Below are positions 2,119 to 62,460 of a DNA stretch of 64,000 bases, piece after piece. This DNA is from a virus. The translations under genes and the position numbers were made by a program. Numbering within the stretch: position 1 is the first letter of the stretch; each line of letters opens with the position of its first letter. The stretch is from the IMG/VR virus record IMGVR_UViG_3300032223_001943, positions 59,202-123,201 of that record; one strand, given 5' to 3'. The notes beneath the pieces were generated by a model. It was not told where the DNA came from, made no database searches, and saw only the letters and a list, made by a program, of their open reading frames with translations.

Positions 2119-3245
2119 TGAAAAAGGAAATTAAAGAAGTTGTAGGGGTACCTGCCGGGATATTAAAAAGTGCTGAAAATTTGTTTGATAACATTGTTAC
2201 CGTATTGGAAGATACTAATGATGAAGATTTTGAATTTAAAGGTACGTTTACGGATAATTTATCATTACCAATAACTGTTATAATTAACGACTTAACTATT
2301 ACATCCGTTAATGTTGCGGTAACATTTAATGTTGGTGACTATTCAAAACTTGAAATCGCTGGCGCGGGTTATTCTTCAGAATTGGGTTTAGATTATAAAA
2401 CACTTAAATTAGTTACGATTTTTGACCCATCTGAAATTGGATTGACAATGAACTTCTTGATTCCAAATACTGGTGAATATATTTTCAATGATATTATTAC
2501 ATATATGTTGAAAAATCGTACATTGATCACATCAACATTAGCACATGAATTAAAACACGCTTACGATAATTATAAACGACCTAATCGTAAAGTTACCGAC
2601 CAGGTGGATTATAATACAAACATTAGCTCCAAGGGTTTAGCTATTCCTGCTTTTAGAAGGTTTAATCGTATGTTATATTTGGCAACATTCATTGAACAAT
2701 TGGTTAAACCGACAGAATTAGCCTCAAGGTTAAAAGCTGAAAATGTTTCACAAAAAGAATTTTTGGAGTTTTTACTAAATGATCGAACATATAAAGAATT
2801 TATTCAATTAAAAAAATATTCAATCAATAGTTTAGTTTCCGAATTAATGGCTCATGAAGATGAATTAAAGTCACTTGACAGATTTAAGGGAAAAGTGACC
2901 GAGGAAATTATCAATGACCTAATAAATTTGGCTTACACCCAATTTACGAATGATAAAATTGAAACTTTAGAAAAATACATTCTTAGGGATAATGATTATT
3001 TATTAAAATCATTGGGTATGACATCCGTTAACATGGATTATTTCCTCAAACAAGTGGATAAATATCAAAAATATTCCAAAAACCCAAAAGATTTCTTTAA
3101 TAATGAAATTAAATTTCTTAATTTTGTGGGGGATAAGATGATAAAGAAGTTGGGAAAACTTTATTCAATTGCCAATGAAGATAAAACACAACAAGCAAAT
3201 ATCATCAAGAAAATTTATAATAAAGTGAACCATGAACAAGGATAA
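2118..3245 (+). CDS. putative zinc peptidase (HELKH), 375 aa
   Basis: STLAHELKHAYDNY near residues 140-153 is an HExxH zinc motif. The rest matches no family I recognise. The first 130 residues look beta-rich and the C-terminal 200 mostly helical. The ATG overlaps the stop of the upstream transglycosylase gene, indicating translational coupling. A structural or cell-envelope role is possible. Confidence 0.55.
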   Translation: MKKEIKEVVGVPAGILKSAENLFDNIVTVLEDTNDEDFEFKGTFTDNLSLPITVIINDLTITSVNVAVTFNVGDYSKLEIAGAGYSSELGLDYKTLKLVTIFDPSEIGLTMNFLIPNTGEYIFNDIITYMLKNRTLITSTLAHELKHAYDNYKRPNRKVTDQVDYNTNISSKGLAIPAFRRFNRMLYLATFIEQLVKPTELASRLKAENVSQKEFLEFLLNDRTYKEFIQLKKYSINSLVSELMAHEDELKSLDRFKGKVTEEIINDLINLAYTQFTNDKIETLEKYILRDNDYLLKSLGMTSVNMDYFLKQVDKYQKYSKNPKDFFNNEIKFLNFVGDKMIKKLGKLYSIANEDKTQQANIIKKIYNKVNHEQG

Positions 3246-3414
3246 TAAAGAATTTTGGATTAGGGATTATTTCGGACCATATCCGATAGATTGGGATTTA
3301 TACGATATCGCAATGGGTCGAAAACCAGGTGAAAAAACAATAGATATCATTAGTTATATGGAATCTGAAGAATATAAAAACTTTTTTAAGGATAAGAAAA
3401 TCCCTAAAAAATAA
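3232..3414 (+). CDS. small acidic/aromatic hypothetical protein (60 aa)
   Basis: No family recognised. Starts inside the last codons of the preceding gene (14-base overlap) and begins MNKDNKEFWIRDYFGPYP. Co-transcribed with the two genes before it. The stop abuts the convergent gene at 3416. Confidence 0.6.
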   Translation: MNKDNKEFWIRDYFGPYPIDWDLYDIAMGRKPGEKTIDIISYMESEEYKNFFKDKKIPKK

Positions 3415-21747: not shown

Positions 21748-23082
21748 TCATTTATCAAACGTTACTTTGATTGGGCAAACTGGAATACCCTCTATCCCAT
21801 CAACAAATGCATTTGGGACTACTTTTCGTATGATGTTAAACGAACCGTTAACATCGGCGTTAATGGTTGTTTTTTCACCTTTTATTTTATATAAACCTCT
21901 ATGTTGTCTATAACCGGAAAAGTTATAAAGATTTTCATCATTTTCACCACCATATATCGGTATTTCATCCATATTCATGAAGCTAGCTTTACTAGTATAC
22001 GATTCTTCCGTTAAAATAACAATTAATCCATTAAGTTTGGCTTTGTATAATATTTGGTCAATTAATTTTGAAAATGGTATTGATACGAATGATTGATTGT
22101 TCTTTTTACCATTATTAACTCCTTGTTTCCAAAATTTATTTTTACCAACACATATTGTTTTAATTTCATTATTTAAACAAAAATCAATTAAATAATTTGA
22201 TGTTTGATGAAAATATTTCTCTATTTTACCATTGCGTTTATTAGTTAATTGATTAATTTTTTTTGAATGTTTAACTTGTTTTGAACCTTCTTTACCATAG
22301 TTAAGTTTATATTCATCTAATTCTACTTTAGATTTATTTGGCAATTCCGACATTAATTTAGATTTGGTTTTATTATAAAATTGGTTAATTGATTTAATTG
22401 GTCTACCGTTAATAAGTACAGGTCTTACCCCCTTTTTATTTGATGTTATAGTTATTAAATTATTAACACCCAAATCCACACCAACGTATGAATTATCTGG
22501 AAAATCTACTTCATAATTTTCTTGTTTTTCATATACAATTTCTATTTTATATTCGATTTTATTAATCGGAACTATTCGTACCTGATTCAATTTATTTGTA
22601 TTATTTATAAATGGTATTATTAAATTTGTTTTTGACAATTTAACTTGTTTATGCTTTTTAAGATAAGGTTTAGATATTGCACCCAATTCATACTCCAACA
22701 TAACCCTACCATTTAATTTATTTTTATAATTAGGTAAACTAGGTTTACCGGTATATTTGTGAGGATTTTTCTTCCAATCTTTTATTGACTTAAAAAATGA
22801 TTTCCAATTCTTATCTAATTTCATTAAAACTAAACTAGACACTTTAGCTGGTAATGACTTATAATTTTCATCCGACTTTAGAATTTTTTTTAAGTCATAA
22901 TAACCGAAATATATTGCATGGTCACACTTCCCTTCTTCTTTTAATTTAGAAGTCTCAATGAATGTTTGTCTAACAATAAAATTAGCTCTATTATATAAAT
23001 TTTTACCCAAAAAACATAGATTATCTATTTCCTTAAAAAAAGGATTATTATTGTCAATAATATGTTTTTCGATTAAAATCAT
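21748..23082 (-). CDS. tnpB: TnpB, variant with non-canonical RuvC-II and no zinc ribbon
   Basis: 444 aa RNA-guided nuclease family protein. RuvC-I Asp in YVGVDLGVNNLITI and RuvC-III Asp in TTINADVNGSFNII are present. Where canonical TnpB has a Glu (ED motif) this one reads TICVGKNKFWKQG. A Glu pair appears instead in LTEESYTSKASF. The CxxC pairs of the target-nucleic-acid-binding domain are lost. This matches a known TnpB subgroup with relocated RuvC-II Glu, so activity is plausible. The guide RNA would overlap and extend past the 3' end at 21748. Confidence 0.85.
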   Translation of the reverse strand: MILIEKHIIDNNNPFFKEIDNLCFLGKNLYNRANFIVRQTFIETSKLKEEGKCDHAIYFGYYDLKKILKSDENYKSLPAKVSSLVLMKLDKNWKSFFKSIKDWKKNPHKYTGKPSLPNYKNKLNGRVMLEYELGAISKPYLKKHKQVKLSKTNLIIPFINNTNKLNQVRIVPINKIEYKIEIVYEKQENYEVDFPDNSYVGVDLGVNNLITITSNKKGVRPVLINGRPIKSINQFYNKTKSKLMSELPNKSKVELDEYKLNYGKEGSKQVKHSKKINQLTNKRNGKIEKYFHQTSNYLIDFCLNNEIKTICVGKNKFWKQGVNNGKKNNQSFVSIPFSKLIDQILYKAKLNGLIVILTEESYTSKASFMNMDEIPIYGGENDENLYNFSGYRQHRGLYKIKGEKTTINADVNGSFNIIRKVVPNAFVDGIEGIPVCPIKVTFDK

Positions 23083-23089
23083 TATTTTT

Positions 23090-23641
23090 CTAAAAACTCA
23101 ATAATATCTTGTTTGTTTTTCTTAAACCATACATCCTAGCCGAAAATGAATAAATTATAGAAACTAAATCCTGAATTAAATCCGTCTTATCATCATCTGT
23201 TCGATTAACAACTATTATTTCTTTATCGTTATTATTCAATAAAGTTTCAATATAATTAAATCCGAATCTAGTTAAACGATCTTTATTTTCGACCAAAAGA
23301 ATATCATAATTGTTTTGTTTAAGTATTTTGGTTAATTTTTTTCTATTATCATTCAAACCTGAACCAATTTCTTTTATATTATCAATAATTGTATAACCAT
23401 TATTAATCGCGTAATTGGTTAATCTTTCAGATTGTCTTTCTAAATTATCCTTCATAGATGATGTAGAAACTCTAGAATAAATTATTACGTTATTCTTCTT
23501 TTCAAGTTTATTAATTGGTATTAATACATGATTAGTTTCGTCAATGAATGCACCCTTAATCTTACCCTTCTTAAAACGATTCCAAGCGGTTCGATAAGTG
23601 ACGTTAAATTTTTTGGCATAATCCGATAATTTATAATACAT
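23090..23641 (-). CDS. tnpA: IS607 serine recombinase TnpA
   Basis: 183 aa. N-terminal MerR-like helix-turn-helix (YAKKFNVTYRTAWNRFKKGK), then a small serine resolvase domain with nucleophile in IIYSRVSTS and IKEIGSGLNDNR, VENKDRLTRFGF. Catalyses transposition without target duplication. Closest here to the copy at 54173. TATATTTATATG lies 12 bases before its start. Confidence 0.9.
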   Translation of the reverse strand: MYYKLSDYAKKFNVTYRTAWNRFKKGKIKGAFIDETNHVLIPINKLEKKNNVIIYSRVSTSSMKDNLERQSERLTNYAINNGYTIIDNIKEIGSGLNDNRKKLTKILKQNNYDILLVENKDRLTRFGFNYIETLLNNNDKEIIVVNRTDDDKTDLIQDLVSIIYSFSARMYGLRKTNKILLSF

Positions 23642-32218: not shown

Positions 32219-32337
32219 GACCAGGTGGTGGAATGGATTGGGGAAACTCGGTCGTTGATAAACACACATATCCATACAGGGATGACGCGGCACTGTATTA
32301 CCGGGTCTTGCAAGTTTGAATCTTGCCCTGGTCACCA
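32219..32337 (+). tRNA. tRNA-like gene with enlarged central region (Leu-like ends)
   Basis: Acceptor GACCAGG pairs perfectly with CCTGGTC, T-arm GCAAG/CTTGC holds TTTGAAT, discriminator A, and CCA is encoded at 32335-32337. The start TGGTGGAATGG resembles tRNA-Leu D-arms. At 119 bases it is about 30 longer than a class II tRNA and no ordinary anticodon arm can be assigned. It shares GGAAAC and TAAAC elements with the gene at 33518. Confidence 0.6.
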
Positions 32338-32617: not shown

Positions 32618-32630
32618 TATAATGGGGATA

Positions 32631-32655
32631 AACAGATTGACCCAAAGGCATGGGT
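32631..32655 (+). repeat. 24-25 base RNA-locus repeat, copy 1
   Basis: Reads AACAGATTGACCC, then AAAGGCAT, then GGGT. The first 24 bases are identical at 33431 and 33739. It can form a hairpin with arms ACCC/GGGT and an invariant AAAGGCAT loop. Here it follows the cloverleaf-like RNA and precedes a T-loop-like GGTTCGAATCC. Confidence 0.7.
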
Positions 32656-32920
32656 GTGAATATAGTATAAGGAACGTAATGGTTCGAATCCTGTCCTGAA
32701 CCACTGGGAGGGTTTATAGTATTCTTGTTAATTGATCGAGGTGTTTTCCCTTTATAATGAAACCCAAATGAATTAACCCCGTTTTTGGTTGAGTGGTTAT
32801 GGAACCAAGGACTTTATATTGGAAAATGGTTTGTCCTAACAAAATCTATTTCTATGGTATAAGTGGGTTTGATCACCCCATCCATTAATTTGATTGATCA
32901 TCCCAAAGATCAATCCGGAA

Positions 32921-33006
32921 TATTGGGTAATGCGTAATGTGGAAATGGTTATCACATCCAACTAAAAAGGGTTGCATTGTTGGTGGTTCGAATCCACCCC
33001 CAATAT
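32921..33006 (+). tRNA. tRNA-like gene with regular acceptor and T-arm only
   Basis: Acceptor TATTGGG pairs fully with CCCAATA and T-arm GGTGG/CCACC holds TTCGAAT. The middle 54 bases do not give normal D and anticodon arms; an extra AATGC/GCATT stem encloses GTAA/TTAT and CAAC/GTTG hairpins. Isotype cannot be assigned. Confidence 0.5.
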
Positions 33007-33100
33007 CAAGCGGTTGTTTGAACTTGGAACTAGGACAACAACAATCATCGGATGAATCCAAGCGTCGTGGATGGTGGTGAAAGGAAGGTCAACTTTCAAG

Positions 33101-33131
33101 GTGGGGGTACCAAATGGATCAAATCCCCCAC
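33101..33131 (+). ncRNA. T-arm-like hairpin with expanded loop
   Basis: GTGGGGG and CCCCCAC pair over 7 bp around TACCAAATGGATCAAAT. Removing the CCA-AA-TGG mini-hairpin leaves a T-loop-like sequence. A tRNA body is not evident around it. Confidence 0.35.
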
Positions 33132-33233
33132 ATTTTTATTCGGTATGGGTGTTAGAAATTAGATTCCCATGTGGTCCATCGTATATTCGTTATACAACGG
33201 ACGACTGACCTTAAAGAAGGCGACCGATTATAT

Positions 33234-33427
33234 GTGTTGTTCCCTTGAGATAGGAAAAAGATAGTACTTATAGACTCGTATAAGCAACACAGAGGCTCTT
33301 AACCTCAAAAATATCAGTATCAAGAGGCAACATTAGGGGTGTCTGTATCTATTGTGCTGATGAAAAGTAGAGAGAACCGTTTATTTGCGGGTAACCATAA
33401 AATAGGCAAACGTCATACTCTACTTTT
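33234..33427 (+). ncRNA. structured RNA region
   Basis: GTGTTG (33234-33239) pairs with CAACAC (33285-33290), enclosing TTCC/GGAA and CTTATA/TATAAG hairpins. A GAGG/CCTC stem with 7-base loop CTCTTAA follows. Then AAAAGTAGAG (33363-33372) pairs with CTCTACTTTT (33418-33427) over 10 bp, three bases before repeat copy 2. No known RNA family is recognised. Confidence 0.45.
33368..33387 (+). repeat. 20-base repeat, copy A
   Basis: TAGAGAGAACCGTT followed by TATTTG; recurs at 33640-33659 as TAGAGAGAACCGTT then AGTTTG. Both copies lie 44 to 80 bases before a copy of the AACAGATTG repeat, so the two motifs form one repeated module. Confidence 0.6.
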
Positions 33428-33430
33428 AAA

Positions 33431-33454
33431 AACAGATTGACCCAAAGGCATGGG
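33431..33454 (+). repeat. 24-base RNA-locus repeat, copy 2
   Basis: Same 24 bases as copy 1. Followed by a TGTAAC/GTTACA hairpin and an ACAGG-TTGCTTC-CTGTT T-arm-like hairpin immediately before the tRNA-like gene at 33518. Confidence 0.7.
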
Positions 33455-33517
33455 GTATAAAAAACTGTAACCATTTGTATGTTACACAATCTGAACAGGT
33501 TGCTTCCTGTTATTTAT

Positions 33518-33638
33518 GGTGAGATGGTGGAATTGGTAGACACTACAACGTGCGATGGCAGGTGGAAACCCTTGAGGTAAACCCATAGGAGAAGAGACAC
33601 ACATACTCTTCATGCAGGTTCAAATCCTGCTCTCACCA
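33518..33638 (+). tRNA. tRNA-Leu-like gene with enlarged central region
   Basis: Acceptor GGTGAGA/TCTCACC, D-arm GTG-GAATTGGTAGA-CAC typical of tRNA-Leu, and T-arm GCAGG-TTCAAAT-CCTGC are all regular. The 70 bases between D-arm and T-arm are about twice the normal amount. They contain CTTGAGG, as around a GAG anticodon, and a GAAGAG/CTCTTC stem that could be the variable arm. An unspliced insert or an altered RNA are both possible. Confidence 0.65.
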
Positions 33639-33639
33639 C

Positions 33640-33659
33640 TAGAGAGAACCGTTAGTTTG
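33640..33659 (+). repeat. 20-base repeat, copy B
   Basis: Begins directly after the discriminator region of the tRNA-Leu-like gene. Differs from copy A at two positions. Confidence 0.55.
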
Positions 33660-33738
33660 AGGTTGTTTACAGCTGTATAAAAGGAAGCGGTAGCTTAAAG
33701 TTGAAGTTGACTGGGACATAGCGTTGTCTAAAACTTAA

Positions 33739-33763
33739 AACAGATTGACCCAAAGGCATGGGT
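33739..33763 (+). repeat. 24-25 base RNA-locus repeat, copy 3
   Basis: Same as copy 1 including the 25th base, giving a 5 bp GACCC/GGGTC stem. It ends two bases before the tRNA-Arg-like gene. Confidence 0.7.
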
Positions 33764-33764
33764 C

Positions 33765-33837
33765 TACCTAGAAATGTAATTGGAAAGCATATTTCTTTTC
33801 TAAAGAAATCGTTTAGGTTCGAACCCTAATAAGGATA
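33765..33837 (+). tRNA. probable tRNA-Arg (anticodon TCT)
   Basis: 73 bases. Anticodon arm TTTCT-TTTCTAA-AGAAA gives anticodon TCT. D-arm ATGT-AATTGGAAA-GCAT and T-arm TTAGG-TTCGAAC-CCTAA are good. The acceptor (TACCTAG with TAAGGAT) pairs poorly, only three or four of seven, so the gene may need editing, be decaying, or have a different 5' end. Confidence 0.55.
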
Positions 33838-33900: not shown

Positions 33901-34503
33901 ATGAAATTTAGTGAAAAGTACAAAAAAGAAGAACTAGAAAATTTAATTATTAATCAAAAATTGTCTTACCGTGAAATTGGTAGGATATATGGTGTGAGTG
34001 ATACTTACATTAAAAAAGTGGCTAATAAATTAGGTATTATTTTAGATAAAAGAAAAATATTTAAAAATGTGGTTGTACCACATAATAAAGGTAATGGTAA
34101 AAAAATTAATTGTAAAAATTGTGGTGTTGAAATTTATCGACCTTGGGACAATCAAAAATATTGTTCAAACGAATGTCATAATGAACTAAAAGTAAGGGAA
34201 AAATACATTAATTATTTAAATTCACAAGAAGAATATAGTAATCTAAATACTGATATGCATTGGGTTAAAAAACATATATTAAATGAACAAGAAAACTCAT
34301 GTGAAATATGTGGTATAAAAAATGAGTGGAATGGTAAACCTTTAGTGTTTGTTTTAGACCATATAAGTGGTAAAGCACATGATAACACTAGAAATAATTT
34401 AAGATTAATTTGTCACAATTGTGATTCACAATTAGATACGTATAAATCTAAAAATAAAAATTCAGATAGAAAAGATAGATATTTAAAAAACTATAAAAAT
34501 TAA
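33901..34503 (+). CDS. HNH homing-type endonuclease (200 aa)
   Basis: N-terminal helix-turn-helix (LSYREIGRIYGVSDTYIKKV), a zinc pair CKNCGVEIYRPWDNQKYCSN, then an HNH domain: CEICGIKNEWNG, VFVLDHISGKAHDNTRNNLRL, CHNCDSQLDTYKSK. It lies inside the tRNA locus with AT-rich flanks, as free-standing homing nucleases do. A group I intron core was not recognised. Probably a selfish element targeting this locus. Confidence 0.8.
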   Translation: MKFSEKYKKEELENLIINQKLSYREIGRIYGVSDTYIKKVANKLGIILDKRKIFKNVVVPHNKGNGKKINCKNCGVEIYRPWDNQKYCSNECHNELKVREKYINYLNSQEEYSNLNTDMHWVKKHILNEQENSCEICGIKNEWNGKPLVFVLDHISGKAHDNTRNNLRLICHNCDSQLDTYKSKNKNSDRKDRYLKNYKN

Positions 34504-34780
34504 AATATACCATCCCTGGGTTTGAATCCATCTGGAATCACAAAAGTATTTACAATTTTTATTGTGATCCGCTTAACCTCTCCCATGAATAATGGTGACG
34601 GAGCGGTTCTCCCCCATAATGAATTCCAAACTGGGGATGTTGATAAACCTAATAAGATATCAACTTTTTTATAACAAATTATTATTCCCCTCGATTCCTG
34701 GTGGGGGATTTATCCCGACTTTAATATAAAACAAAAATGGGGGATTTATTCCCCCATTCCTATTATCTTTTATAAATAAT
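34504..34780. other. gene-free spacer in the RNA locus
   Basis: Contains a T-loop-like GGGTTTGAATCC near 34519, GTTGATAAAC similar to the iterons near 34640, and CCCC/GGGG hairpins near 34685-34760. No full tRNA or gene found. Confidence 0.4.
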
Positions 34781-46508: not shown

Positions 46509-48131
46509 CTATGCTGATATTCGCACACATTTTGACTTGTGTGATTCTAAATTTTTACCTAAAGACCCGATAGGGTTCCTCCATCTCAATGAGGAGATAA
46601 TAGAATATAACTCACGCCAATTTGTCCATTTCTTATCAATATTCTCTCCAAGTAGATAGTTCAACTTCTCTTGATTTATTAACGATAATGATGGATATAT
46701 GCTATTACCTTTTATATATTTTATAATTCCACGTCTACCAATTTCCATTGCCGCGGCAACTGGATCCGGATAATCGTAGATTAAATTTCCAATAAAACTA
46801 GAATAACAAGGATTAACCATTATTAGATTTAATCCAATATTTTGACAATATTTTAAGATTAATTTTGATGTTAATTCTCTATGCCAAATGTTTTTTGTTA
46901 TTCTATTCGCATCTTTTGATTTGTCTTTATGGTCTGGTTTGAAATCCAGATCTTCCATAACAAAATTATAAACACGATAATGTTTAACCAAATTAAAAAT
47001 ATATTTCCACACATTCGTTATTTCGGTTTTTCGTTTATTATTTTGTTTAATTTGTTTTTTATCCGATGACGATAACTTTAATTTTGTTCCTAATCTTGAT
47101 AAATCAATAACTTCTTTATAAATTATTTTTCCAACTTGATTCTTTTTTGTTTTATCAAAAATAACAAAACCAATATATTTTGGATTTAAGTCAACTGAAA
47201 TGTAACGACCTTCAACCTTATTAAGTTTTTTTCTATTTTCAAGTTCGGTTATAAATTCTTTATATATTTCTTTTTTTTCTTCTGGAGTATCAACAAGTTT
47301 TTGTTGTTTTTTACATTCGATATTATTAAATGAAAATCCATTTAATAATTCATTATCATATCCAAATATGATATCATTATTAATAACTCTAACAGTTAAT
47401 GGTATTAACTTATCATCCGTTAATAACTGAAGTTGATTGAATAATTTTCTTTTATTTTTTGGAATGTTAACTTCAATTTCAATGGAAGTATTTCTGTTTG
47501 GTTTGAATATTACTTTATTGTTGTTAAAATCAAAAAAGAATTTTCTATTACCTTTTTCACATGCACTTCCAATAAAGTAAAACCCAATAACTCTGTTATT
47601 TTTGAATTCGGTCTTATATTTTAATAATAGTTCTTGTTTTCCCTGAATTGTTTTTTTGATAATATCAATTTCTTTTTTATCCATTATTTTTGATAATGTG
47701 ATATTTAAGGAGTTAATTTTAACATTTAATTTTGTTATTTTCCGTTGTAAAGATTTTCCTCCAAAAGTTATATTTTTTCCAATATTTCTTTTATATCTAT
47801 TGACTTTATTGATTAAATGAAATTTTCTTCGTTTTTCTTTTTTCGTTAAGAATTCTTCATTCTCTAAAATCTTCTCAATTTTTTTAATTTCATTTAACTT
47901 CTTTTCTTCACTGGTTTGATATTGATTATATTTTGTTTTAACATCTTGTTTACATATTTCATATATTGATTGATCTATATATTGATTCAATTGTTGTTCG
48001 TTAAATGAATTATCTGACAATAATTCTAGATTATTATATAATTTATAAAACAATCCGGTATAAGTGGATTGATATTTCATTAACAATTCATAATCCGAAC
48101 AATTGGTTATATGTAGTTTTTCACTTAACAT
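46509..48131 (-). CDS. tnpB: long TnpB without zinc ribbon
   Basis: 540 aa, longer than the usual 350 to 450. RuvC-I Asp in RYISVDLNPKYIGFVIF, RuvC-II Glu in NFVMEDLDFKPDH, RuvC-III with NPCYSSFIGNLIYDYPDPVAAAMEIGRRG, whose Asp completes the triad. No CxxC pairs. The same architecture is seen in the copy at 62447. The N-terminal 200 residues are Lys-rich and coiled-coil-like. Probably an RNA-guided nuclease of the TnpB-related YTS/YSS-IG clade. Starts inside the recombinase gene (11-base overlap). Confidence 0.85.
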   Translation of the reverse strand: MLSEKLHITNCSDYELLMKYQSTYTGLFYKLYNNLELLSDNSFNEQQLNQYIDQSIYEICKQDVKTKYNQYQTSEEKKLNEIKKIEKILENEEFLTKKEKRRKFHLINKVNRYKRNIGKNITFGGKSLQRKITKLNVKINSLNITLSKIMDKKEIDIIKKTIQGKQELLLKYKTEFKNNRVIGFYFIGSACEKGNRKFFFDFNNNKVIFKPNRNTSIEIEVNIPKNKRKLFNQLQLLTDDKLIPLTVRVINNDIIFGYDNELLNGFSFNNIECKKQQKLVDTPEEKKEIYKEFITELENRKKLNKVEGRYISVDLNPKYIGFVIFDKTKKNQVGKIIYKEVIDLSRLGTKLKLSSSDKKQIKQNNKRKTEITNVWKYIFNLVKHYRVYNFVMEDLDFKPDHKDKSKDANRITKNIWHRELTSKLILKYCQNIGLNLIMVNPCYSSFIGNLIYDYPDPVAAAMEIGRRGIIKYIKGNSIYPSLSLINQEKLNYLLGENIDKKWTNWRELYSIISSLRWRNPIGSLGKNLESHKSKCVRISA

Positions 48132-48720
48132 CCGATAGGTTAATTTCTTCTGAAGTTAATGACTCAATTATTTTTTTTCTTTTTCTACTTGAATATATTT
48201 TAGATGAAAAATGATGGATTATCGCTATCATGTCATCAATAATTTCTTGATTTTTGGTTTTGTCAATTGTGTTGTCCAAGACGATTAAATTAACATTAAA
48301 TAATTTACATAAGTGTTCAAAATCGTCAAAACCAATTCTTAATAACCTGTCCTTATATTCAATTATTATTGTATCGATATTTTTTGATATTATTTCTTTA
48401 TATAAACGTCTATATTCTTTTCTATTATAGTTTAAAGCAGAACCAATTTCAGAATATATTTCATCAACGATCAAACCTTTAGCTGAAGCAAAAGATTTTA
48501 ATCGTTCAACTTGTCTTGTTAAATTTTCTTTTTGATTTGTTGTTGAACATCTTGCGTATAATACTGTTTTACGGTTAACCATTTCCAATGGATCAACTTT
48601 ATCAATATAATCATAACGACCGGTTGGTGTTATGGTATAACTAATTTTTCCTTGTTTAACCCATCGACATAAAGTTTCTCGACAAATGTTATATTTTAAC
48701 ATGACTTCTTTCGCTTTCAT
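48121..48720 (-). CDS. tnpA: IS607 serine recombinase TnpA
   Basis: 199 aa. HTH KYNICRETLCRWVKQGKI, serine nucleophile in VLYARCSTTNQ, YSEIGSALNYNRKEY, IEYKDRLLRIGFDD. Closest here to 61858 at the N-terminus (MKAKEV). TATATTTATTAGT ends directly at its ATG. Confidence 0.9.
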   Translation of the reverse strand: MKAKEVMLKYNICRETLCRWVKQGKISYTITPTGRYDYIDKVDPLEMVNRKTVLYARCSTTNQKENLTRQVERLKSFASAKGLIVDEIYSEIGSALNYNRKEYRRLYKEIISKNIDTIIIEYKDRLLRIGFDDFEHLCKLFNVNLIVLDNTIDKTKNQEIIDDMIAIIHHFSSKIYSSRKRKKIIESLTSEEINLSDVK

Positions 48721-52770: not shown

Positions 52771-52826
52771 CAAATGTTAAAATTCCGAATTTGGACTTTT
52801 TCAAACCTTAATAGGTTTGAAGTCCT
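52757..52826 (-). ncRNA. probable omega-RNA 3' part for TnpB of element 3
   Basis: TTCAAACC/GGTTTGAA plus GGAC/GTCC form a bulged hairpin at 52793-52825 overlapping the tnpB 3' end. In TnpB systems the guide RNA covers the 3' end of tnpB and runs into the flank. Here the guide would come from the GIY-YIG gene below 52757. Confidence 0.4.
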
Positions 52827-54180
52827 TAGCGGAACTATGGCCGCGTTGATCTCTCCAAACATTATTCAATTCAGTTAATGATTGGAGGATTTCACTTTTT
52901 GATTTATTATTATACCCAGAACTTCTAGATATATGATTTCTTGACGCATTAACATCGGCATTTATTTTTAAACCACAACATTTACACACAAATTCAGATT
53001 GAGTTTTACGATTTTTCTTATCCGTATAATGACAATTTGAACATTCTTGTGACGTATACGCTGGGTTTTTTTCTTTTGTTATAATTAATTTACATTCACT
53101 TAAACTAGATAACTTATTACGTATCACATTTTTCCCAAAATTATTTAATAAACGATTGTTTACTTTACCGATATTTTGACCTCTAAAATCCAATTTTTCA
53201 ACATGGATTTCACTTGGTTTATATCGTTTAACCAATTTATTTAATACTCGGTTAATTTCATTTTTAATAAAACTTTTTAATTTTTTATTTAATTTAACGT
53301 ATCGTTTTGAATTACTTGGTTTAATATTTTGTTTTTGTAGATTAACCATTAATTTGGTTATAATCTTATCCATATTTTTAATATAATTCATCGCTTTTTT
53401 ACCCAACAAATCACCATGATTTGTTGCGAATAAATTAACCAAACCAACATCCAAACCTAAAATTGATAATTTGTTAGCAACATAACTTTTATCAACATCA
53501 ATTGATTTTATTAATGAAAATGTTAATGTATTATTTTTTTTATTAATCTGGATTGAATTTTTAATTATACCTTCTTGAGAATTAAAGAAATCATTAGTTG
53601 TCAACGGAATCATTACCGGTTTACCTTTAACCAATGTTGAAATTTTTAACCAATAATTAAAAGTAGTCGTCCCATCACTAGGGATAATCTGAACAACTTT
53701 ACCGTCTAACGATAAATTAATTGACTTATATTTTGGTTTGTTTTTTGTTAATTTTTTGAATATGTGTCTAGCTAAACGTAATATTTCCGGTTCGATTGGA
53801 TTTTTCTTCATGATAACCTCCTTATCAAACCATTTTTTGTATTTATTTATATATAATAATTTTAGTCTAACATCTTCTTCAATTGATGAATTTATTACTT
53901 TATCAACAAATCTTAATTTTACATTGGAAATATATGAATCTAACATCCCAACAACTTGATATTGACAAGTTTGTTTATAACGTTCAGATAAATTTATTGG
54001 TAAATCTGTTATTTTTAAGTTTTTATTAAATTTCGTTCCATTTTTATAAAACAATTCCCATTGTTTATTGGAAATTTGTTTTGCTGAAATTCTATACATA
54101 TCAACAACGTCCATTAACAAATCAAGTTTATTTTGATTTGAATGGTTTTTTAATTGATATGATCTAAATATTTCAGTCAT
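52801..54180 (-). CDS. tnpB: TnpB, canonical RNA-guided nuclease with zinc ribbon
   Basis: 459 aa. RuvC-I Asp in ILGLDVGLVNLFATN, RuvC-II Glu in EIHVEKLDFRGQ, zinc ribbon CSNCHYTDKKNR and CKCCG, RuvC-III Asp in KINADVNASRNH. The full D-E-D set and CxxC pairs make it the most canonical of the four. Overlaps tnpA by 8 bases. Confidence 0.95.
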   Translation of the reverse strand: MTEIFRSYQLKNHSNQNKLDLLMDVVDMYRISAKQISNKQWELFYKNGTKFNKNLKITDLPINLSERYKQTCQYQVVGMLDSYISNVKLRFVDKVINSSIEEDVRLKLLYINKYKKWFDKEVIMKKNPIEPEILRLARHIFKKLTKNKPKYKSINLSLDGKVVQIIPSDGTTTFNYWLKISTLVKGKPVMIPLTTNDFFNSQEGIIKNSIQINKKNNTLTFSLIKSIDVDKSYVANKLSILGLDVGLVNLFATNHGDLLGKKAMNYIKNMDKIITKLMVNLQKQNIKPSNSKRYVKLNKKLKSFIKNEINRVLNKLVKRYKPSEIHVEKLDFRGQNIGKVNNRLLNNFGKNVIRNKLSSLSECKLIITKEKNPAYTSQECSNCHYTDKKNRKTQSEFVCKCCGLKINADVNASRNHISRSSGYNNKSKSEILQSLTELNNVWRDQRGHSSAKDFKPIKV

Positions 54181-54760
54181 TGGTTGTTAATTCTTTAATA
54201 ATTTGTTCAGTTCTTCTTTTATTTCTTCTTAACCCATACAATCTTGAACAAAACGAAGTTATTATTGATACGAAATCTGTCATTAAATCCTCTTTTTCAT
54301 TCAAACATTCATTAATAACTTCAATCTTCTTATTTTGTTTGTTCAATAATAATTCAAGATAATTTAATCCGAATCTAGCAAGACGATCTTTATGTTCAAC
54401 AATAATGACGTCCCAATTATCATCTTTTAATATTTCCGCTAATTTTGGTCTTTTATCGTTTAACCCTGAACCGATTTCCTTTATTTCTTTTGTTATTGTA
54501 TAACCTTTAGCAACAGCAAAACTACGTAAACGATCCAACTGTGTGTCCAGATTAGTTTTATTTTCAGAAGAAGATACTCTAGTATATAAAACAACTCTAG
54601 TATTTTTTGTTATATTTTCATTCCCTTCTTCCTCAATATCAATTAATATTGTACCAGTCTTAAGTTTAATACCTTTAATTAAACCATTATTGAAATACCT
54701 ATATGCACTCATATAGGATATTCCATTCATTTTTGCGTATTTGGATAATTTAACTCTCAT
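54173..54760 (-). CDS. tnpA: IS607 serine recombinase TnpA
   Basis: 195 aa. HTH YAKMNGISYMSAYRYFNNGL, serine in VVLYTRVSSSENK, IKEIGSGLNDKRP, VEHKDRLARFGLNY. Most like the copy at 23090. TATATTTATTATTAG precedes the ATG. Confidence 0.9.
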   Translation of the reverse strand: MRVKLSKYAKMNGISYMSAYRYFNNGLIKGIKLKTGTILIDIEEEGNENITKNTRVVLYTRVSSSENKTNLDTQLDRLRSFAVAKGYTITKEIKEIGSGLNDKRPKLAEILKDDNWDVIIVEHKDRLARFGLNYLELLLNKQNKKIEVINECLNEKEDLMTDFVSIITSFCSRLYGLRRNKRRTEQIIKELTTND

Positions 54761-56916: not shown

Positions 56917-57009
56917 TTAGAATTTACCGAAGAATGAATATTCCCTACATTTCCGAACTTCTTCTTCAATGAACCTTAAATAATCATATATTTCCTTAAA
57001 AATTCCCAT
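56917..57009 (-). CDS. 30-residue peptide
   Basis: MGIFKEIYDYLRFIEEEVRK, then CREYSFFGKF. Start overlaps the 3' end of the PseT-like gene by 14 bases. Helical. Confidence 0.4.
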   Translation of the reverse strand: MGIFKEIYDYLRFIEEEVRKCREYSFFGKF

Positions 57010-57895
57010 CTTCCACCTGGAATACTTTTAGTTTATTTTTTCTCCATTGTGTAATAACCTGGTTACGATCATCATACACAAATAAAACATTATAGTTTTC
57101 TTTAATATAATTATCGTAGATTTCTTGTTTTATAATCGAATCTTTACGATTATCATTATGTTTACGCATATATATCCCATCAAAAGGAATGTTATGTTTT
57201 TCCAACCATTGAACCGTTAAATCTTGACAAACTTCATCACGACCAGAAACAATAAACACCTTTTCATTTAATAGTTTATGTTTTCTTAATCTGTCCGCAA
57301 CAACTTCATCAACATCGTCCAAATCAACTTTATTCCATTCAAAAGGACCACGTTTTCCATTCATATGGGCCAATGTTCCATCAACATCACATAAAATGAC
57401 ATCTTCTTTTGATGGATCTTTAATTGGATTCTCGTAGATATAGTTTTGTTTTTTTCTGGGTGAGAAATCAAACGTTTTAATTAAATTTTGATAATTCTCA
57501 AACATCTTTTCAATAACTTCTTTTCCCACCGATCGTTCTCGTTTTGAATCACGTTCAATGGCATCATCAATTGTTATATCCATAACTTGAAATTCAACAT
57601 TTGCCCTGGTGATAACCAAATCAATGAATTGATTAATATATTTTTCACGAACATTGGTATTATCAATAATAACATTCAAACCCTTATTTAACGCGGAAAT
57701 AACCGATGAATTGATAATATCGGTGATTAATTCTTCCGTTTTATTATCACAGAAGGGAATATTCTTAAACATAAACCTAAAATCATCACGATTCATTCTA
57801 ATCCAATTTGGATTTTCCTTAATAAAGTTCAAGGAATATGTTGATTTTCCACTACCAGGAATTCCAATCATTATTTTAACTGTAGGCGTTTTCAT
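56996..57895 (-). CDS. pseT: polynucleotide 5'-kinase/3'-phosphatase (T4 PseT-like)
   Basis: 299 aa from MKTPTVKIMIGIPGSGKSTY, matching T4 Pnk length (301). Kinase half: P-loop GIPGSGKS, then INRDDFR-type MNRDDFRFM, and DNTNVREKYI. Phosphatase half: VILCDVDGTLAHMNGKRGPF (HAD DxDGT), IVSGRDEVCQDLTVQWLEKH, FVYDDRNQVITQWR. Repairs RNA or DNA ends. In T4 it counters host tRNA cleavage with an RNA ligase, not found here. Useful beside the odd tRNA genes. TATATTTG precedes it. Confidence 0.95.
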   Translation of the reverse strand: MKTPTVKIMIGIPGSGKSTYSLNFIKENPNWIRMNRDDFRFMFKNIPFCDNKTEELITDIINSSVISALNKGLNVIIDNTNVREKYINQFIDLVITRANVEFQVMDITIDDAIERDSKRERSVGKEVIEKMFENYQNLIKTFDFSPRKKQNYIYENPIKDPSKEDVILCDVDGTLAHMNGKRGPFEWNKVDLDDVDEVVADRLRKHKLLNEKVFIVSGRDEVCQDLTVQWLEKHNIPFDGIYMRKHNDNRKDSIIKQEIYDNYIKENYNVLFVYDDRNQVITQWRKNKLKVFQVEDGNF

Positions 57896-57899
57896 ATGA

Positions 57900-57907
57900 C
57901 AAATATA
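57900..57907 (-). promoter_or_regulatory. Bacteroidota-type promoter element TATATTTG
   Basis: Minus strand TTTATATTTGTC, 4 bases before the PseT-like start. Confidence 0.5.
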
Positions 57908-57995
57908 AAGAAAAAAAATATTAACGACAATCACCCAACATAGGATTTATTTATTAACTTCACCAAAAAGTTATTAACATTAAAAACTAAAAGTC

Positions 57996-58530: not shown

Positions 58531-59921
58531 TAATCAATTCGCATGACAATATAATAGTCATGACCTATTTTATATTCGTCATATCGACCATCGTAACCAT
58601 TTAAATCACCATAATCACCATTATTAGCCGCGTCCCTAGCAATTTCATCCAAATCAACATAACCACTAATGACTTTTGAATCGTAACCCATATCTTTTAA
58701 GAATTCATAAGGATCACGTCTAATATCTTCAAGTCGTGATTCAACTTCACCATCAATCATTTCGTCACTAACTTCTGGTGTCATTTCATCAATTTCTTCT
58801 TGAGCTCGTTCCTTATTAGATTCAGCTTCGTCAATCCATTCCTGAATTTCTTCATTTTCTTCATCACCCATTTGGTCTTGAAGTTCACTTATCTTATCGT
58901 CCAATTCGTTGATATAATCTTCAAGTTCCTGAATTCGTTCCTGTTGTTCCTCCGAATAACCAACGTTATCAAAATAAGATTCCAAATTTTCACGAATATC
59001 TTCATCATAATAATCCCTGAAATCTTCAGCAACCCTATCACCATCAAGATTACCTTCAATATAGTCAGAAAATGAATCAAGACCAACATCATCAATTAAA
59101 TTGCGATAATAATCAACCAATGATTCGTGAGCGTCATCGGATCGTTTAGTAGCATATTGTTTTGGATTACGTAAATCACCCATACCTTTAACACGATAAA
59201 CATTAAAATCGTAATGCGAACTATATGTTGGTAATACATCATAAACATCAATGTACGATTTCAGTTCTTCAAGACGACCCTCAATTTCATCATATTCTTC
59301 TTGTTGTTCATCGGTCATTTCAGTAAGACTATCCAACTCCTCAAGACGATTCTCAAAACGAATTTTTTCTTCACGTTCATCTGGTTCTAATTCATAAACA
59401 TCACCTTGATCCACAACATATTTCAATACCGACCAAGCCTCAGACGCTTCTTCACTACTATCTGGATCGTCCCAAGTACCTTCTTGTCTACGTTCATTAG
59501 CTTCATCCAATTCTTTTTGATACTCAGCTTGTAACTGTTTGGTTTCATATTTAGATCCCCATACTTTAACACTACCATATTCAACCCGGTCAATAGATTC
59601 AACGTTAGTATTAGATATATCTAATTGACCCTGAACATATTTAAGGTTACCTAAATCGTTTAAGTTTTCACAACCAGATAAATTTAAACCACCATCAACA
59701 CCAGTAATATTCCCTAAACTTATTAAATTTTTATTTTTAATTGTTAGGTCACCATCAACCCAAATCGGTCTATTTTGCAATAAACGATTAAACACTTGCG
59801 TACCATGAACTTGGTCAATAATATAATTTAATTTCCCTGGTTCAATATGAATATATTCATCATCTTGTTCATTCAAAACACGATAAATAAAATTTTTTAA
59901 TTGTTGTTCAGTTAGTTCCAT
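58530..59921 (-). CDS. large acidic coiled-coil protein with targeting-like N-terminus
   Basis: 463 aa. MELTEQQLKNFIYRVLNEQD is a variant of the shared N-terminal class. Residues 45-120 have LRR-like steps (NLISLGNITGVDGGLNLSGC, LGNLKYVQGQLDISN). From residue 150 a long acidic coiled coil (RIQELEDYINELDDKISELQ, NEEIQEWIDEAESNKERAQE). The tail DEIARDAANNGDYGDLNGYD is also acidic. Late motif at 59922-59935. Possibly an abundant head-interior protein. Confidence 0.6.
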   Translation of the reverse strand: MELTEQQLKNFIYRVLNEQDDEYIHIEPGKLNYIIDQVHGTQVFNRLLQNRPIWVDGDLTIKNKNLISLGNITGVDGGLNLSGCENLNDLGNLKYVQGQLDISNTNVESIDRVEYGSVKVWGSKYETKQLQAEYQKELDEANERRQEGTWDDPDSSEEASEAWSVLKYVVDQGDVYELEPDEREEKIRFENRLEELDSLTEMTDEQQEEYDEIEGRLEELKSYIDVYDVLPTYSSHYDFNVYRVKGMGDLRNPKQYATKRSDDAHESLVDYYRNLIDDVGLDSFSDYIEGNLDGDRVAEDFRDYYDEDIRENLESYFDNVGYSEEQQERIQELEDYINELDDKISELQDQMGDEENEEIQEWIDEAESNKERAQEEIDEMTPEVSDEMIDGEVESRLEDIRRDPYEFLKDMGYDSKVISGYVDLDEIARDAANNGDYGDLNGYDGRYDEYKIGHDYYIVMRID

Positions 59922-59941
59922 AACAATAAATATATCGAATT

Positions 59942-61582
59942 TTAATTATCTGAATTAACCAAAACAGTTTTATCGATATTTTTATATTCATTGAAGAATT
60001 CATTATATATCGCTTCCATCACTGGTATACATATTGAATTCCCCGCCAACGCCACATGTGCTCGGTGCGATAAATTTGTATTTGATAAAATCGTATCAAT
60101 ATCTTCATCCTTAACCCCCATGAATCTATAACCCTCCCTTGCGGTAATGGTCCTGAATTTTCCGTTGTCCAACATAATTTGCGGTGAACCAGATGTTGTT
60201 AAACATGGTGATGCCCCATCCAATGAATATATCCTTCTGGTTTGATCATATGAAATATCATCCCTTCTGGCAATTAGGTTACATACACTACGTTTTTCCT
60301 TCTTCTCGTTTAATGTGTAGGGTGCGTTAACAAATAATTCATCTTCAACATTATCCTCAATATATGGACGCATTGGATTGGTATGACCGTTAACTCTAGG
60401 TATAAATTGAATACTATCCAACTTTTGTTTAACATGTTCCGAAGTTTCACCCAATACCGATAACATAAATACTCGTTCCCTATTTTGGGGACAACCGAAA
60501 TCAACCCCATTGAAAACCCTCCAAGCATTCCCATATCCAAAACCTTCCAATGTTTCCATATATGTTTTGAAGGCATCCATATGATTTTTGGAAATTAAAT
60601 TTTTAACATTCTCCATCATTAAAAATTTGGGTCTATTGTGTTTTAATATACGTTCAACCTCAAACAATAATCCGGATCTTGTCCCTTTTTTAATACCCTT
60701 CTGAACCCCAGAAATTGAAATATCTTGACAGTTATGGACAATACAACCATTCGCAGTAAATGAATGATCAACATCCACTTCAATATCAAAAACCTCTTCA
60801 ATTTCTTCCGTCTGTTCAATCCTGGTTAAAGGAGTCCAGATGTAGTTGTCAATGATTGTTAACGTCTTTTTCTTATTGATAATTAAATGATATTCACCTT
60901 TACGTTTATAGATTGAAAAACCATACTTAAACGTTCCCATAATTAATTGTGCGACGGAATAAATGAAATCTTTATCGGAAGACTTAAAATAAATCTTATT
61001 TTCACGAACAACATCCGCAACATCTATTGTGTATTTATATAATTCAAGTTTTTGTTCATCACTTAAAACATTATCCGTTACCATTCCAATATAATCGGTT
61101 TCAATAATGTCTTTACATTCCTTCCAATGAATAACCCCAAATTTATTTCTAACATAAAACTTATGATTCTCCGTTGTCCTAATTTCATCAACAGTTGGAG
61201 TAATAACCCTCCAGATATTCTTTTTTCCTTGATTAAAGGTCTTATTTACCTTTTTGTAGGTGTTGGTATGTGTCAATACCATATCATCAACTTCAACCTT
61301 GTCAATGGTCTTAAAACCATCCCTCGTTAATACCAATGTGTCTTTTGTAAAACAAGGAAATGAATATGTTAATAAATCACAAGATGGAAATGTTTTTTCA
61401 TCAATTTTTGTGATATCCCCCAAATTTCCAACCTGGGTTGTATGTAAAGCATCATATACCTTATTGGCGGATGATAATATATCACAATTGGCAACATTTT
61501 CATAATTGATATCCGCATACTTCAATGCCAACTCCTGGGTTCCATAACCAGAAAATAGTGTTATAACTCGCAAATTCTTCAT
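59942..61582 (-). CDS. C5-cytosine DNA methyltransferase interrupted by an intein
   Basis: 546 aa precursor. Extein motifs: VITLFSGYGTQELAL (I), YSFP then, after the intein, CQDISISG (catalytic PCQ motif IV), MMENVKNLI (VI), QTRRIYSLDGASPCLTTSG (VIII), REGYRFMGV and RAHVALAGNSI (X). Removal of residues 77-284 gives a 338 aa enzyme of normal size. It methylates DNA cytosine, perhaps protecting phage DNA. TATATTTG at 61587-61594 marks a host-type promoter. Confidence 0.95.
   Translation of the reverse strand: MKNLRVITLFSGYGTQELALKYADINYENVANCDILSSANKVYDALHTTQVGNLGDITKIDEKTFPSCDLLTYSFPCFTKDTLVLTRDGFKTIDKVEVDDMVLTHTNTYKKVNKTFNQGKKNIWRVITPTVDEIRTTENHKFYVRNKFGVIHWKECKDIIETDYIGMVTDNVLSDEQKLELYKYTIDVADVVRENKIYFKSSDKDFIYSVAQLIMGTFKYGFSIYKRKGEYHLIINKKKTLTIIDNYIWTPLTRIEQTEEIEEVFDIEVDVDHSFTANGCIVHNCQDISISGVQKGIKKGTRSGLLFEVERILKHNRPKFLMMENVKNLISKNHMDAFKTYMETLEGFGYGNAWRVFNGVDFGCPQNRERVFMLSVLGETSEHVKQKLDSIQFIPRVNGHTNPMRPYIEDNVEDELFVNAPYTLNEKKEKRSVCNLIARRDDISYDQTRRIYSLDGASPCLTTSGSPQIMLDNGKFRTITAREGYRFMGVKDEDIDTILSNTNLSHRAHVALAGNSICIPVMEAIYNEFFNEYKNIDKTVLVNSDN
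60731..61354 (-). other. intein in the cytosine methyltransferase (208 aa)
   Basis: Begins CFTKDTLVLTRDGFKTIDKV (block A with nucleophile Cys). TTENHKFYVR is block B with its TxxH. It ends EEVFDIEVDVDHSFTANGCI, then VHN, with the next extein residue Cys, as splicing requires. The +1 Cys is the methylase's own catalytic Cys. About 90 residues in the middle may be a shrunken LAGLIDADG nuclease (FIYSVAQLIMGTFKYGFSIY). Confidence 0.92.
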
Positions 61583-61857: not shown

Positions 61858-62460
61858 ATGAAAGCGAAAGAAGTTAGAAAATTATTAGGTATAACATACG
61901 TCACACTAAATACCTATATAAAACAAGGTAAGATAAGATATACCAAAATAAACAATAATCATTATATATACAATGATGAAGATGTTTATAAATTAATAGG
62001 TGTTAAAAAAGAAAAACATAATAGGATTAATATCACTTATTCTAGAGTATCGAATAGACCTAGAAATAATGATCTAAAGGAACAATCTAATAGATTATAT
62101 AACTTCGCAATTTCAAAAGGTATTACAATTGAAAAACAATACGAGGATATAAAATCTGGAATGTCTTTTGACAGAAAAGATTTTAATGAAATGTTGAATT
62201 CGATTATTAAAGGTAAAGTTGAATGTGTCATTATAGAAAATAAAGATCGATTAGCAAGATTTGGTTTTGATTTATTAGAACAATTATTTAAGTTATATGG
62301 TACTAAAATCATAATTGCAAATGATGAAATATCTAATAAGACTTATGAACAAGAATTAACGGATGATTTAATTTCAATTATCCATTATTTCTCGATGAAA
62401 TCATATTCAAATAGAAGAAAATTAAACAAGTTTAAAAAAGAATTAATTGATAACGATTAA
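61858..62460 (+). CDS. tnpA: IS607 serine recombinase TnpA
   Basis: 200 aa. HTH KLLGITYVTLNTYIKQGKIR, serine in INITYSRVSNRPR, YEDIKSGMSFDRKDF, IENKDRLARFGFDL. MKAKEV start shared with 48121. The tnpB reading frame begins inside its last codons. Confidence 0.9.
   Translation: MKAKEVRKLLGITYVTLNTYIKQGKIRYTKINNNHYIYNDEDVYKLIGVKKEKHNRINITYSRVSNRPRNNDLKEQSNRLYNFAISKGITIEKQYEDIKSGMSFDRKDFNEMLNSIIKGKVECVIIENKDRLARFGFDLLEQLFKLYGTKIIIANDEISNKTYEQELTDDLISIIHYFSMKSYSNRRKLNKFKKELIDND

Follow-up and report, generated by a model that had tools for sequence, protein, structure and literature searches.

What is a short repeat doing three times over among the tRNA-type genes of a phage? In the window, by which we mean the whole 64,000-nt stretch analyzed (positions 59,202 to 123,201 of IMG/VR record IMGVR_UViG_3300032223_001943), copies lie at 32630-32655, 33430-33455, and 33738-33763, agree at 25 of 26 nt (the final base being T, G, and T, respectively), and all fall within one array. 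With up to three mismatches allowed, a search returned exactly these three matches, all on the + strand, and none in shuffled sequence; the full 123,201-bp virus record likewise holds the same three copies only, on one strand. The identical copies reported by the first-pass annotation are thus real, while its description of the region as otherwise without repeats was mistaken, since other repeats exist, such as TAGAGAGAACCGTT at 33368 and 33640. It had also proposed a search of the complete genome and of other phages, with absence from all relatives pointing to duplication by chance. An exact search of viral contigs found the 24-base repeat in 14 others, which rules out chance duplication, and a search with the 3′ part of the surrounding element added nine contigs bearing it whole or in part, bringing the total to 23 other contigs.

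When these contigs were aligned by reading, constant 5′ and 3′ blocks recurred across them, and the inserts between the blocks were mostly unrelated. The 24-base repeat is the constant 5′ block of a predicted RNA domain of about 77-140 nt, here called module A, with the order AAACAGATTG-ACCC-AAAGGCAT-GGGT, a hypervariable insert of ~27-81 nt, and (A)CAATCTGAACAGGU(N)GCUUCCUGUU. Helix P1 (CAGATTG/CAATCTG) encloses a hairpin just inside it, P2 (ACCC-AAAGGCAT-GGGT), together with a hypervariable arm whose final helix is P4; another hairpin, P3 (AACAGG-UNGCUU-CCUGUU), lies 3′ of P1, and the loops L2 (AGGCA) and L3 (UGCUU) are complementary. Given this layout in the side-by-side contigs, the 24-mer corresponds to the P1 5′ strand plus P2. 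The CCC/GGG hairpin with loop AAAGGCAT noted earlier is present, as folding of copy 2 shows, but as part of a larger RNA domain and not as a standalone unit. At the window locus, we recognized the following features.

32219..32333, + strand: further expanded tRNA-like RNA without recognizable anticodon arm
32630..32655, + strand: repeat copy 1, the 5′ constant block of a truncated module A (36.1 bits)
32656..32680, + strand: partial module A arm, nearly identical to the L013 arm up to the break
32681..32703, + strand: tRNA remnant (T-loop and 3′ acceptor) to which copy 1 is fused, GGTTCGAATCCTGTCCTGAACCA, read from the sequence
33232..33310, + strand: module B, a sister domain with P1 (TGTGTTG/CAACACA), P2, arm, P3, and loop-loop complementarity
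33312..33360, + strand: hairpin of module E, with 45 nt shared exactly with L013
33363..33429, + strand: module G stem-loop, AAAAGTAGAG...CTCTACTTTT
33430..33455, + strand: repeat copy 2, comprising the P1 5′ strand (33433-33439) and the P2 hairpin
33430..33517, + strand: complete module A (copy 2; 93.1 bits, E 2.9e-16, from a model that includes this copy), with P1 33433-33439/33487-33493, P2 33440-33455, P4 33466-33471/33481-33486, P3 33494-33499/33506-33511, and spacer ATTTAT 33512-33517
33518..33638, + strand: expanded tRNA-like RNA of about 120 nt, 6 nt past P3
33673..33742, + strand: module D, shared with L007, L010, and L026 and contiguous with copy 3
33738..33763, + strand: repeat copy 3, a truncated module A (33.4 bits)
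33765..33837, + strand: tRNA-Arg(UCU)-like sequence fused to copy 3, with a poorly pairing acceptor stem (33.8 bits; arms read from sequence)

The three copies had been treated as alike, but only copy 2 carries the complete module, at 93.1 bits versus 36.1 and 33.4 for copies 1 and 3; the covariance model was built from 11 sequences including copy 2, and it is the contrast between copies that matters, not the copy 2 score. The copy 2 module has the same sequence as that of L014, and downstream of the repeat comes the rest of the module and then the 120-nt tRNA-like gene. Copy 1 tracks the L013 module as far as AACGTAATGGT and then passes into a tRNA T-loop and acceptor end, and no P1/P3 fold was found for it; copy 3 breaks off directly after P2 and continues as the tRNA-Arg(UCU)-like sequence. 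The association with tRNA-type genes noticed at first pass is borne out by this T-arm and this tRNA-Arg-like sequence. Judged by their junctions, copies 1 and 3 look like recombination products, with assembly error as a possible alternative. Past the tRNA-Arg-like sequence comes an HNH endonuclease gene (window 33901-34541), followed by the 3′ remnant of a tRNA (GGTTTGAATCC..GGAATCACA).

Module B, which lies upstream of copy 2, has the layout of A in a different sequence, TGTGTTG-TTCC-CTTGAGAAA-GGAA ... CAACACA-GAGG-TTCTCAA-CCTC, and its loops are complementary as well (UUGAGAA/UUCUCAA). It is far more widespread than A, with at least 120 loci carrying the B 5′ block and more than 90 variants, although many A and B contigs are related and such counts do not represent independent events. 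Our searches of isolated phage records found neither A nor subtype B1. Subtype B2 occurs in the cultured Cellulophaga phage phi14:2 (KC821624, about 3130-3356), in an intergenic position adjoining a tmRNA-like gene; this region is annotated as small ORFs, not as RNA, and module A was not seen there. In L130, too, a B2 RNA has a tmRNA gene nearby; the tmRNA of phi14:2 is our reading from the sequence, and that of L130 is an ARAGORN call. B2 RNAs (L182:2446-2672; L170:1840-2050; L130; L105) consist of module B plus further domains, AAGTAGTTA..TAACTAC and GACCCTACTCTTAT..AAGAAAGAGGGTGCTA, and are often preceded by GTTAAACATTGAATACCTTTGTA, which resembles a Bacteroidota-type promoter. In Cellulophaga phage phi4:1, their terminal domain occupies the space between two genes by itself, and phi17:2 has a match to it as well. 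A different structured module, ACTTCGGTACCC..GGGCTAAGTAAGATACAATTCC..GGGAGTAGAA, recurs upstream of tRNA-like genes in L031, L040, L047, L048, and L054.

Efforts to extend module A itself returned nothing further: a search for more divergent forms with P1 and P3 freed gave only matches without the module, and a covariance-model search of 92 sources gave no new A, with two weak matches at E 0.57 (L060 and L151), the first of which reads as coding. In bacterial genomes, two matches to A had coding-like surroundings without the module and were set aside as chance, and no B was found.

Several lines of evidence argue that these elements fold as RNA. The minimum-energy fold of copy 2 is P1/P2/P4/P3 (z -2.2), and in the fold of the 461-nt stretch 33180-33640 discrete domains follow one another, the last being the tRNA-like RNA (z -3.2, with none of 100 shuffles as stable). 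P4 abuts the 3′ strand of P1 (P1′), usually with a gap of 0-1 nt, and its stem sequences differ among copies; it averages 5.85 bp in A inserts versus 4.54 ± 0.24 bp after shuffling (n = 20) and 5.01 versus 4.14 ± 0.12 bp in B inserts (n = 94), in a test that is fair in taking the best stem from real and shuffled inserts alike and in which related inserts are not independent. The constant regions of B contain 14 compensatory double changes versus 4.9 after shuffling (0 of 500 shuffles as high; n = 66 distinct sequences; the shuffle ignores relatedness). Compensatory changes support the pairing of B and of P4. The constant stems of A are nearly invariant and lie beyond covariation testing because they hardly vary; L2-L3 pairing is likewise invariant in A, and in B it is compatible, with almost no compensatory change. 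A descriptor combining P1, P2, P3, and L2-L3 complementarity gave 102 matches, mostly A or B, versus 15 and 26 in shuffled sequence. Taken from sequence and folding, the predicted structure of the A and B domains is well supported.

The position of the domains is also constrained. After A, the spacer from P3 to the gene is 5-7 nt, mostly ATTTAT, for 10 of 10 detected tRNA-type genes, all of them on the same strand and all expanded tRNA-like RNAs of 97-159 nt; under a stricter tRNA definition, six distinct cases remain and the spacing is unchanged. B1 lies 2-4 nt before tRNA-type genes, canonical or expanded and on the same strand, in 27 of 29 cases. With so constant a distance to the start of the tRNA-like RNA, the repeat may act as the processing signal suggested at first pass. 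In several contigs, an ORF starts 18-59 nt past A and no tRNA-like gene is present there; because A precedes ORFs in these contigs, its role is not tRNA specific.

We consider it about an even call that A serves as a 5′ leader that folds on its own, one domain among several in tRNA-like phage transcripts. This reading draws on the constant ends, predicted to close as a clasp, on an arm at liberty to vary, on the uniform distance to the next RNA, and on the unchanging strand. Within such transcripts, A and B would be beads fixed 2-7 nt upstream of tRNAs or tRNA-like RNAs, each probably closed into a compact clasp by kissing of L2 with L3. The leader domain would keep each tRNA-like unit apart from the RNA before it and expose the 5′ end of the unit to a cleaving enzyme such as host RNase P. 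It would also guard the leader against misfolding with the tRNA-like unit and against degradation, while the arm would be free to diversify.

The same geometry could belong to a self-cleaving ribozyme. On that account, A and B would free the downstream RNA 5′ end as a 5′ counterpart of theta ribozymes, which provide a phage precedent for ribozyme-tRNA pairing (PMC10879173), and the invariant core, variable peripheral arm, probable pseudoknot, and fixed distance to the tRNA-like 5′ end would all be explained. However, the helices of A are themselves invariant, unlike those of most small ribozymes, there was no match to an Rfam ribozyme family, and a known cleavage motif was not seen; we regard self-cleavage as decidedly unlikely. 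A could alternatively belong to the RNA upstream, as a terminal hairpin acting as an intrinsic terminator or 3′-end stabilizer, given that in most arrays no other bead separates it from the tRNA-like gene or ORF, that P3 with its T-rich tail (33494-33511 plus tail) is weakly terminator-like, and that the tail of some copies is rich in T (TATTTTTTT in L007). We find this quite unlikely: the tail before tRNA-like genes is merely ATTTAT, a terminator needs neither conserved P1, P2, and P4 nor loop complementarity, and B has the same layout without a T tract.

The tRNA-type genes downstream are themselves unusual. The collected loci contain 380 distinct tRNA-type sequences, 105 of which are at least 93 nt long; these long forms keep the acceptor (often AGTCAGG/CCTGACT), D arm, and T arm around a hypervariable middle. 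A canonical anticodon arm was found at the expected place in 1 of 105 long versus 146 of 203 short tRNA-type sequences, by a crude in-house test that misses 57 short tRNAs, so the contrast outweighs the absolute numbers. There are ~100 distinct long tRNA-like RNAs, examples being those of L044, L038, L026, L036, and L042 and window 32219-32333 and 33518-33638. At the place of the anticodon arm, GGAGTCATGACCTGARGGTATC is common to several tRNA-like RNAs (L004:1531-1578, L005:5300-5347, L014:3877-3939, L026, and L035). One sequence (L034, - strand, 578-686) is readable as a tRNA-Phe(GAA) interrupted between positions 37 and 38 by an insert of 35 nt; general tRNA splicing was dropped as an explanation, since insert removal in other long tRNA-like RNAs, tried by eye, gave no standard anticodon loop.

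The arms of A and B vary as well. Among 114 distinct inserts, only 24 pairs are related; four pairs link B1 and B2, and one arm appears in two scaffolds, the A insert of L009 matching the B1 insert of L173 at 83% over 77 nt. Such diversity on constant supports might mean that the RNAs serve as anti-defense decoys, with constant scaffolds (the A/B clasp and the tRNA elbow) displaying arms that evolve fast and either bind host factors or divert them, and the module stabilizing the display. The exchange of an arm between scaffolds, the ~100 tRNA-like RNAs in which acceptor, D, and T arms are constant and the part between them varies, and the spread among unrelated phages described below would all be in keeping with decoys; the variability of the arms may also be drift without constraint, and complementarity of arms to their own locus measured 9.6 nt versus 9.4 nt in a mismatched-locus control, no within-locus signal above control, which led us to reject antisense arms. 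We consider a decoy function rather unlikely. A related proposal, which we view as unlikely, is that unrelated phages share a modular RNA toolkit in which clasp scaffolds (A, B, and others) and ~100 tRNA-like RNAs lacking anticodon arms would carry exchangeable, rapidly evolving arms as an RNA-based repertoire against host factors.

The carriers are diverse. The large terminase of the window phage is T4-like and 66% identical to that of the L024 contig; other A-bearing contigs (~107-122 kb, with one 49-kb fragment) have a distantly crAss-like terminase. Since its carriers have terminases of these two kinds, A is common to unrelated phages, and both A and B occur in T4-like and in distantly crAss-like phages. 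We infer that the host of the window phage belongs to the Bacteroidota. Neither RNA ligase 1, Ro60/TROVE, nor RtcB is shared among the carrier phages as a common partner, and no match to T4-type RNA ligase 1 (PF09511) was found in the record of the window phage. The window does encode a polynucleotide kinase-phosphatase (56996-57934; phrog_505), as in RNA repair. It also holds three TnpB-like plus serine recombinase pairs, IS607-like by appearance, and one lone recombinase (21748-23641, 46509-48720, 52801-54760, and 61858-62460). A DNA methyltransferase and a portal-like ORF, apparently intein bearing, lie at window 59942-61582 and L063:11940-16337.

Spread across unrelated phages and arm exchange fit the earlier suggestion that the repeat is a mobile unit; constant orientation and conserved pairing favor an RNA function instead. 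In its strongest form, that suggestion would make the elements DNA-level mobile cassettes; P1/P1′ would then serve as short inverted repeats or as recombination sites in folded form, and the RNA fold would be of secondary importance. Modules, arms, and tRNA pieces are indeed shuffled among unrelated phages, and copies 1 and 3 are recombinant-like. Yet in the cases read the modules always have one orientation relative to the gene that follows, P4 pairing persists despite sequence turnover, and a dedicated recombinase was not identified, making mobile cassettes very improbable.

Phage tRNA arrays are commonly viewed as translation helpers. Our results indicate that they also house many structured RNAs overlooked by standard annotation, among them clasp domains whose arms are hypervariable, and tRNA-like RNAs probably unable to decode. 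A leader or processing role for A and B would represent a new arrangement of tRNA leaders if maturation is their sole role; if the arms act on host factors, they would constitute a new RNA-based layer of phage-host conflict. The presence of a B-type domain in cultured phi14:2, a phage of Cellulophaga baltica, makes expression, processing, and need directly testable.

Module A is absent from the public RNA-family library: Rfam 15, at gathering and permissive thresholds, gave no match to A or B in the window and in loci with A and B, the only above-threshold matches in these scans being to tRNA models. We found no description of an A or B RNA in the openly accessible part of the literature, which is weak evidence. 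A and B resemble tRNA (RF00005) in having a 7-bp P1, hairpins P2 and P3 with complementary loops, and a third arm; they differ in placing P3 outside P1 and in having no anticodon arm, and A has no tRNA-model match. The long downstream tRNA-like RNAs can match RF00005, but in 104 of 105 the crude test above found no canonical anticodon arm where one is expected. Theta ribozymes, which are HDV-like RNAs at the 3′ end of phage tRNAs (PMC10879173), are similarly small structured RNAs with a fixed place beside phage tRNAs. Their cleavage site, however, lies at or within 5 nt of the tRNA 3′ end, whereas A stands 5-7 nt upstream of the 5′ end, and the A layout, P1-P2-P4-P1′-P3, is not the nested double pseudoknot of HDV. 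GOLLD and ROOL are large RNAs of phages and prophages, found near tRNA islands, with kissing loops and a variable linker (PMC12286853). A and B share with them the tRNA-island neighborhood, kissing loops (putative in A and B), and the combination of constant parts with a variable segment; they differ in being domains of about 80-140 nt arranged in modular strings, without a match to the covariance models of these families. A homo-oligomeric RNA cage is among the features that define GOLLD and ROOL. Although A and B depart from both in the defining features tested here, GOLLD/ROOL RNAs and theta ribozymes are the nearest known kinds.
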